Assembly (NCBI GenBank): GCA_002401855.1
Contig: NVUH01000002.1
Location: 1-64,000, forward strand
DNA from: Hyphomicrobiales bacterium
GTDB taxonomy: Bacteria; Pseudomonadota; Alphaproteobacteria; Rhizobiales; OSC116
Length of the DNA stretch: 64,000 bases
Direction: 5' to 3'
Numbering within the stretch: the stretch's first letter is position 1; every line of letters starts with the position of its first letter. Made by a program: the position numbers and the translations under genes. The notes under the pieces are model-generated. The model was not told where the DNA came from, searched no databases, and worked only from the letters and a program-made list of their open reading frames with translations. This document shows positions 35,986-37,484 of the stretch, piece after piece.

Positions 35986-36369
35986 TTAGTGAAAAATCAT
36001 TTCACCTAAAATTTCTTTTGCTTTTTGCTCGTCCTCATAAATGACAACTATTTTTTCAATCTGTTGTTTTGCGATGTATAGCGTTGCATCGGCATCTAGC
36101 CCTATTATTTTCTGACCAGGATAATATATTTGATAATGAAATTTTGCTTTGAAAATATTTTCATCTTTATCGGCCTGTAGCTCTGAAATGGTCATCTGAT
36201 AATTGCAATCAAATTTTTCTTGTAGTTTTATAAATTGTTTGGACCCTGTGGTTTTAATGGATTCTGTTTCGTAAATAAAATCATCAGCAAGGCAGGCGGC
36301 CATTTCACTAAAATTACGGCGAATAAAACTATTTACAAAGAAATTAATGAGGTCAAAATTATTGATCAT
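35986..36369 (-). CDS. NTF2-like paralogue 1 of 3
   Basis: A 127-residue small protein, member of a tandem family of three. Shared core: SFIRRNFSEMAACLADDF near the N-terminus, then G-x3-FIKLQ, a D-x-N/D-x-F/Y strand, and the ending EILGEMIFH. Size, the alternating strand pattern and the aromatic-rich N-terminal helix suggest a cone-shaped NTF2/SnoaL fold; this is inference. The longest frame begins at 36426. Alignment with its two paralogues places the start at ATG 36369, giving exactly 127 codons plus stop in all three. It has no recognised catalytic residues. It is the downstream-most of the three on the minus strand. Confidence 0.72.
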   Translation of the reverse strand: MINNFDLINFFVNSFIRRNFSEMAACLADDFIYETESIKTTGSKQFIKLQEKFDCNYQMTISELQADKDENIFKAKFHYQIYYPGQKIIGLDADATLYIAKQQIEKIVVIYEDEQKAKEILGEMIFH

Positions 36370-36435
36370 TTTACCAACAAGAGAAGTTTGAATTTTAATA
36401 TAATTTACCATCATCTTGCGTGGCAAGTATGTAAT

Positions 36436-36460
36436 ACTTTGATGGGTATTAGACCAAAGA
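36436..36460. repeat. Intergenic inverted-repeat element, copy between paralogues 2 and 1
   Basis: ACTTTGAT at 36436-36443 and ACCAAAGA at 36453-36460 bound an imperfect 25-bp dyad (ACTTTG with CAAAG). The second copy is at 36935-36959; the shared stretch runs further to the left (AAGTATGTAATACTTTGAT here, AAGTGTATCTAGTACTTTGA there). The element lies 14 bases after the stop codon of paralogue 2 and 66 bases before the start of paralogue 1. Confidence 0.6.
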
Positions 36461-36474
36461 ATTTGTGAGGCATT

Positions 36475-36858
36475 TTAGTGAATGACCATTTGACTAAAGA
36501 TTTCTTGGGCATATTCTGGGTGTTTATAGTTGATTTGTATTTTATAAATTAGTTCATCTTTTACATAAATTTTGGTCGTTGCCTCTAAGGTGATCCTTTG
36601 ACGGGTATGGAAATATATATGGTAGATAAGTTCAAACTTAAACATTTGCGTTTGGTGATTAAATTGTAAGTTGGATACTGATATGATGAAATTACTATCC
36701 AACCTTTCTTGAGATTTTAAGAATTTTTCACGCCCAGATATGCGAATAAAACCACCATCGCACAAGAAATTTGCAGCCAAGCAACTTTCCATTTCGTCAA
36801 AATTTCGGCGACCAAAACTATTAATAAATCGATAGATTAGACTATAGCTATTGTTCAC
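36475..36858 (-). CDS. NTF2-like paralogue 2 of 3
   Basis: A 127-residue paralogue with SFGRRNFDEMESCLAANF, GREKFLKSQERLDSNF, YHIYFHTRQRI and the ending EIFSQMVIH. No ATG exists near the N-terminus. GTG codons at 36867, 36864 and 36858 are possible; alignment with the other two proteins picks 36858, immediately after a GGTGGTG run. It is closest in sequence to paralogue 3 (both have FGRRNF and YHI-x2-H-x-RQ). Probably an NTF2/SnoaL fold; function unknown. Confidence 0.72.
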   Translation of the reverse strand: MNNSYSLIYRFINSFGRRNFDEMESCLAANFLCDGGFIRISGREKFLKSQERLDSNFIISVSNLQFNHQTQMFKFELIYHIYFHTRQRITLEATTKIYVKDELIYKIQINYKHPEYAQEIFSQMVIH

Positions 36859-36934
36859 AAGCACCACCGTTGCAAATTGTCACATATCCACCCAGAACTC
36901 TATTAAACGCTATTTCACACTAAGTGTATCTAGT

Positions 36935-36959
36935 ACTTTGATAGACATTATACCAAAGT
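36935..36959. repeat. Intergenic inverted-repeat element, copy between paralogues 3 and 2
   Basis: A 25-bp dyad: ACTTTG at 36935-36940 with CAAAGT at 36954-36959, with further inner pairing TA...TA. On the minus strand it contains TATAAT (plus 36947-36952), so it could overlap a promoter for paralogue 2. It lies 11 bases after the stop of paralogue 3 and 76 bases before the start of paralogue 2. Sequence and placement match the copy at 36436-36460. Confidence 0.6.
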
Positions 36960-36970
36960 GAAGTTTTAAA

Positions 36971-37354
36971 TTAGTGGTAGATCATTTGCTTAAAAATGGC
37001 TTCTGCGCGTTCTTTATCCTCAAATTCGACGGTCATTTTTGTAATAAGTTGATCATTTATATATATTTTTGCTTGTGCTGCGATGTCGACTTTTTGGCGA
37101 GAATGTAAATGTATGTGATAAATATATTCCAGATCATATACATTTGGCACCGAACTTGGCTTAATACTGGTCACTGATAGATTGAAATTACTATCAATTT
37201 TTTTTTGTAATTTTATGAATTTATCCCGTCCTTCTAGCTCGATAATGGGCGTTTCAAATATGAATGTTTCAGCAATACAGCTTGATGTTTCGGAAAAATT
37301 TCGCCGCCCGAAACTGCGCATAAAGAAATCAATCAATCTAAAATTATATTCCAC
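36971..37354 (-). CDS. NTF2-like paralogue 3 of 3
   Basis: A 127-residue paralogue with SFGRRNFSETSSCIAETF, GRDKFIKLQKKIDSNF, YHIHLHSRQKV and the ending AIFKQMIYH. The longest frame starts at TTG 37387. GTG 37354 has GGGTGA upstream and aligns exactly with the starts of the other two. It is the first gene of the minus-strand triplet. Above it, near 37417, lies GTATGTAAGACT, which resembles the left part of the intergenic element but lacks the full dyad. Function unknown. Confidence 0.72.
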   Translation of the reverse strand: MEYNFRLIDFFMRSFGRRNFSETSSCIAETFIFETPIIELEGRDKFIKLQKKIDSNFNLSVTSIKPSSVPNVYDLEYIYHIHLHSRQKVDIAAQAKIYINDQLITKMTVEFEDKERAEAIFKQMIYH

Positions 37355-37484
37355 AAAAATCACCCAGAACAGACGCGCATCCCTCAATAATCATTGAAAA
37401 CTTTAACGAGCGGCTTGTATGTAAGACTATCGTCATTAAATATTTGATGAAAATTCAGTGGGGGCATTGTTGATGGGCTTCATT

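Follow-up and report, generated by a model that had tools for sequence, protein, structure and literature searches.

A genus-restricted, expanded family of NTF2-like proteins represented by a tandem gene triplet at the UPF0173-gatC site of an alphaproteobacterium

The window analysed here, a 64,000-nucleotide stretch of the genome designated G000, carries three neighbouring minus-strand genes, flanked by UPF0173 and gatC on the plus strand (Table 1). All three ORFs were found where an initial annotation of this DNA had placed them, and the encoded proteins, as that annotation had stated, can be aligned over their full length with no gap; 30 of the 127 columns are invariant, and pairwise identities are 36-41%. 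The motifs that it had listed, S-F-x-R-R-N-F-x-E, C-x-A, F-x-K-x-Q and a terminal M-[IV]-x-H, are all present in the triplet, but the final histidine is not universal, as the copy 2 orthologue in the congener G005 ends in M-I-I-R. Likewise, a length of exactly 384 bp holds for each gene under starts chosen by alignment, but is partly start-dependent, with longer ORFs opening upstream (the longest ORFs of copies 1, 2 and 3 start at 36426, 36867 and 37387). The single copy at the same site in another congener, G002, also yields 127 residues from a GTG start. In a genome search with copy 3 as the query, copies 2 and 1 were recovered with E-values of 4e-31 and 4e-27, so the likeness within the triplet is not due to chance. 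Polar residues kept in all three proteins are R17, R18, N19, C26, K48, Q50, D54, Y79, Y98 and K106. The GC content of the triplet (0.31-0.35) is the lowest among the larger ORFs of the window (mean 0.43), fitting a foreign or fast-evolving origin. One additional ORF of 11 codons, read by eye, is out of frame with copy 2 and overlaps that gene's GTG start (window 36848-36883, minus strand; GTG ACA ATT TGC AAC GGT GGT GCT TGT GAA CAA TAG); it may be a coupling leader or what is left of an earlier start.

Table 1. Genes and upstream elements of the UPF0173-gatC array, with positions in the window.
Feature	Position	Strand	Remarks
Copy 1, NTF2/SnoaL-like, 127 aa	35986..36369	(-)	ATG start; SnoaL_2 E 0.0017 (below Pfam cut-off)
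Copy 2, NTF2/SnoaL-like, 127 aa	36475..36858	(-)	GTG start; G005 orthologue 90% identical, dN/dS 0.12
Copy 3, NTF2/SnoaL-like, 127 aa	36971..37354	(-)	GTG start; AlphaFold2 pLDDT 91.7; G005 orthologue 91% identical, dN/dS 0.13
Upstream element, copy 1, AAAGTATTACATAC	36427..36440	(-)	71 nt before start codon
Upstream element, copy 2, AAAGTACTAGATAC	36926..36939	(-)	81 nt before start codon
Upstream element, copy 3, ATAGTCTTACATAC	37417..37430	(-)	76 nt before start codon

The copies are real protein genes under purifying selection. Five congeners (G001-G005) were compared with G000, and G005 carries orthologues of copies 2 and 3 at the same site, for which dN/dS is 0.12-0.13 by NG86 and 0.21-0.25 by YN00; the flanking genes give 0.02-0.21 in the same G000-G005 comparison. 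Conservation of the frames as proteins in relatives, which the initial annotation had proposed as a test, is seen for these two copies. Across the family, dN/dS (NG86) is 0.07-0.14 in six of the seven informative G000-G005 pairs and 0.46 in the remaining one; a further reciprocal pair, which is saturated and probably non-orthologous, lies outside the seven.

Copy number at the UPF0173-gatC site differs among the congeners, with three copies in G000, two in G005, one in G002, and none in G001 or G004. A contig profile scan with the close alignment matched only two relatives, G005 and G002. The gap between UPF0173 and gatC is only 157-189 bp in the two copy-free congeners, in keeping with the earlier impression of an inserted set. 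In G003 the gap holds an unrelated gene for a 173-residue membrane-like protein (L047:2249-2770, contig C142), indicating that it takes different inserts within the genus. No orthologue of copy 1 is present at the site in G005 or G002. In a tree of the family, the six array proteins of G000, G005 and G002 form one clade (support 99/97). Within that clade, the single G002 protein falls with copy 2 (99/89); support for the placement of copy 1 is weak (81/56). The array copies differ from each other at about 60% of protein positions, as against about 10% between G000 and G005 orthologues. Because divergence between paralogues far exceeds that between orthologues, and because the G002 copy groups with copy 2, the duplications appear to predate the species split and to have been followed by loss. 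Judging from branch lengths, the array looks old, with differential loss, and not freshly amplified, and the local amplification described in the initial annotation is not supported as a recent event. Horizontal transfer or accelerated evolution could mimic such a history of old duplication and loss.

Each gene of the array is preceded by a conserved 14-bp element (Table 1), which is found 84 nt before the start in the G002 copy. Identity of the element between copies is 71-100%, compared to 25-62% for the sequence flanking it upstream and 31-47% downstream. Furthermore, the spacers between the array genes are 105-112 bp, and the presence of an upstream element for each copy suggests separate promoters. 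A 24-bp stretch, TTTGGTnTAATnnCnATCAAAGTA, overlaps the element of copy 2 and recurs only upstream of copy 1. No other occurrence of the element was found in the G000 genome at 1 mismatch or fewer, nor upstream of family members outside the array within 2 mismatches; the element is specific to the UPF0173-gatC array, and a promoter motif shared by the whole family was rejected. A scan for the sigma-70 consensus gave no excess over shuffles. From its sequence conservation, the 14-bp element is a candidate promoter or operator that was probably duplicated along with each gene and retained by selection.

The NTF2-like fold assigned in the initial annotation is backed by structure prediction and structural searches. 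The AlphaFold2 model of copy 3 (pTM 0.85) consists of helices followed by a strongly curved sheet, and the model of a distant family member (pLDDT 85.9) has the same order of elements. The top Foldseek matches in the PDB are of the NTF2/KSI/LEH/SnoaL type (E 3.6e-9 to 8.5e-7), and include NTF2-like proteins, limonene-epoxide hydrolases, polyketide-cyclase-like proteins and proteins of the ketosteroid-isomerase fold. The best of these, an uncharacterised NTF2-like protein from Cytophaga hutchinsonii (PDB 3f40; E 3.6e-9, TM 0.74/0.83), is also a profile match (E 7e-4), but is only 21% identical to copy 3 over the structural alignment; the PDB profile matches of the family are to polyketide-cyclase-like and NTF2-like entries. 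Viral Foldseek matches, which are giant-virus NTF2-like proteins, reflect the fold only, and a phage origin was rejected, as no relatives were present in phage records or viral contigs.

At the sequence level, SnoaL_2 (PF12680) matches eight of the 66 family members at E <=0.01, with a best value of 1.7e-6, and SnoaL and SnoaL_4 match a few. The window copies score 19.4, 15.3 and 14.6 bits against SnoaL_2, below the curated cut-off of 27 bits, and have no meaningful model match in NCBIfam. A Pfam match of copy 3 to ACT_AHAS_ss (0.0034) was dismissed as fortuitous, given that copies 1 and 2 show no such match and have a different fold in prospect from the copy 3 model. The common predicted fold and the weak but repeated matches to SnoaL_2 and SnoaL-like Pfams (PF12680, PF07366, PF13577) point to membership of the NTF2-like superfamily, with a probable remote affinity to the SnoaL group. 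Unlike SnoaL_2, however, the family is restricted to one genus and expanded, and 58 of its 66 members have no match to that model even at E 0.01.

A family profile built from 25 members identified 13 true members in G000, 19 in G001, 11 in G002, 5 in G003, 5 in G004 and 15 in G005, the counts for G002 and G004 being minima for genomes that are 71-75% complete. A fourteenth match in G000 (C36, E 0.003) was left out, as it reads as a 354-residue FlhF-like protein. Members occupy many scattered sites, with close tandem pairs in strong excess: six pairs within 2.5 kb were observed versus 0.13 expected in G000, four versus 0.13 in G005, and three versus 0.24 in G001. The triplet is the largest uninterrupted tandem cluster of the family seen here. 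Thus, the early view of tandem paralogues forming a lineage-specific set was borne out, but the relevant unit is a family spread across the genus, mostly at dispersed sites, and not the local array; 13 of its copies are in G000.

Outside the genus, the family profile matched once, weakly, among 291 further genomes of the order, and gave five weak single matches in a class sample of 385 genomes that overlaps the order sample in part. The family is therefore genus-restricted within the compared genomes, which included no other genus of its taxonomic family. Genes of the ordinary SnoaL_2 type are common in the order and occur in multiple copies (0-24 per genome), and possession of several NTF2-like genes is thus not unusual; what is unusual is the expansion of one divergent clade in one genus. 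A literature search for a published NTF2-like lineage-specific expansion of this kind gave nothing relevant.

A number of other member sites have distinctive surroundings. The clade that is sister to the window array (98/94) lies behind pyrG and a NUDIX gene, another long-kept site, with two copies in G000 (L009:2755-3805, C15) and one in G001 (L093:4578-5012, C44). At one locus in G005 (L037:3081-6607, C99), three members are interleaved with small PAS-like and PilZ-like genes. Transposase-like genes are found near a few members (L034:8320-8631, L100:194-619, L109:6295-6744).

Clustering of about 200 neighbouring genes uncovered no recurring partner gene. Recurrence arises mainly through orthologous sites, and the other recurring neighbours belong to common classes (transporters, MCPs and PAS proteins among them), along with small PAS and PilZ genes. 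The term undescribed system, used in the initial annotation, was consequently too strong, for lack of a recurring partner and because the fold and superfamily are well known. Identity as a defence protein was rejected as well, for matches to PADLOC anti-phage defence models were weak and scattered over unrelated models, with each model hit by only one or two members (best 3e-4).

Members of the family are single-domain proteins of about 120-140 residues, and none has a membrane-like hydrophobic run near its N-terminus. Delta5-3-ketosteroid isomerase (KSI) shares their fold and size, and its N-terminal half can be aligned with them, but its catalytic Tyr14 and Asp38 are replaced in the family. 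The comparison used the Comamonas testosteroni enzyme, a sequence that PDB matches confirm as a steroid isomerase; in the hhalign alignment, which is weak (probability 3%), Tyr14 and Asp38 fall opposite F11 and T35 of copy 3, respectively. In that weak alignment Phe occupies the Tyr14 column of 54 of the 66 members, and the Asp38 column is mostly Ser, Leu, Thr or Val (Asp in 3/66); the alignment ends before reaching Asp99, and nearby columns are Gly/Ala or variable. Over the 66 members, conserved columns are nearly all hydrophobic, together with a DD turn, and no polar column is conserved family-wide except the DD turn, an adjoining Ser and an Asn close to the N-terminus.

Where an NTF2-like family has no conserved polar residues, non-catalytic ligand binding has been inferred, but enzymes are the commoner case among intracellular NTF2-like proteins (Eberhardt et al. 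2013, PMC3924330). With the alignable KSI residues missing, no conserved polar pocket residue, no recurring partner and no toxin recognised among the neighbours, non-catalytic ligand binding is the likeliest role, and we give it an about even chance. In this account the family is cytosolic and has grown to its present numbers as genes were duplicated, moved into new intergenic positions and were lost, and every gene is presumably expressed separately. The cone-shaped NTF2 pocket of each protein would hold a different small hydrophobic or aromatic ligand, with no conserved catalytic apparatus, and the proteins may act as soluble sensors, carriers or scavengers. Paralogues differing in pocket specificity would explain the retention of residues that form the fold alongside variation at polar positions in the pocket.

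The second-ranked reading, possible but on balance rather doubtful, is that of small SnoaL-like enzymes (isomerases, cyclases, dehydratases or epoxide hydrolases) whose active sites diverged with substrate, leaving no residue conserved across the family. The closest structures are mostly enzymes, for instance limonene-epoxide hydrolase, polyketide-cyclase-like and KSI-fold proteins, and the homology to SnoaL_2 and the several polar residues retained in the window subfamily are in line with this reading; some of the residues kept in the triplet could line the pocket, and catalysis could be specific to that subfamily. Replacement of the KSI Tyr and Asp argues against it, as does the failure of any polar pocket residue to be conserved family-wide. 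Moreover, neighbours differ by site and suggest no single pathway, repeating, common classes aside, only at orthologous sites.

A function as orphan immunity proteins, in a repertoire resembling polyimmunity against toxins delivered by competitors, is improbable. NTF2-fold immunity families do exist, and Imm-NTF2 and Imm-NTF2-2 polyimmunity loci resemble the present case in fold, tandem paralogue arrays and variable copy number; polyimmunity loci typically consist of tandem paralogue arrays whose copy number changes from strain to strain (Zhang et al. 2012, PMC3482391), and copy number at the UPF0173-gatC site varies as 3/2/1/0. However, none of the 66 members matches a Pfam immunity NTF2 model at E 0.01. 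The conserved Trp listed for Imm-NTF2 in the table of immunity families (PMC3482391) is missing, with 53 of 66 members having no Trp and no column being Trp-rich, and no toxin was recognised among the approximately 200 neighbours, by reading and by clustering of recurrent ones. A genome usually has a single polyimmunity locus, with co-oriented, closely spaced genes that are probably co-transcribed (PMC3482391). The array is tandem and co-oriented, but each of its copies has an upstream element of its own, and the family uses many dispersed sites.

There is similarly little probability that the proteins are cytosolic sensory adaptors tied to chemotaxis or second-messenger signalling. For eight of 52 members, versus 1.25 expected, a methyl-accepting chemotaxis gene is located no more than 2.5 kb away, a post hoc comparison made without a matched control and comprising about five independent sites (orthologous sites included; P ~0.002), and small PAS and PilZ genes repeatedly adjoin members. 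The genes are not co-operonic, however, being separated by gaps of about 0.4-1.2 kb, and most sites, including UPF0173-gatC, have no adjoining signalling gene. Islands of lineage-specific genes may also gather both kinds, and the suggested link to chemotaxis is a lead only. Selfish or near-neutral turnover of a gene family, with copies kept without strong function, would fit the variable copy number, the truncated and stop-containing copies that occur in relatives, and the low GC of the triplet, but is very improbable given dN/dS well below 1 in informative orthologue pairs, several orthologous member sites kept across two or three species, and an upstream element conserved while the surrounding spacers diverged.

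The triplet thus belongs to a real, previously unmodelled, genus-restricted NTF2-like family within a well-known superfamily, which is a modest finding. By way of a long shot, the 5-19 diversified cytosolic NTF2 pockets per cell, with their own promoters, might work together as soluble sensors of ligands, in part coupled to chemoreceptors encoded nearby, with which an oligotrophic bacterium of the sea or subseafloor would read many different small molecules. In any event, the NTF2-like superfamily gains an undescribed, lineage-restricted and expanded family from uncultured marine or subseafloor alphaproteobacteria. If the copies are ordinary enzymes, they would represent a routine paralogue expansion of a common fold; if they bind different ligands, they would provide a natural panel for studying how a pocket diversifies without fixed catalytic residues.
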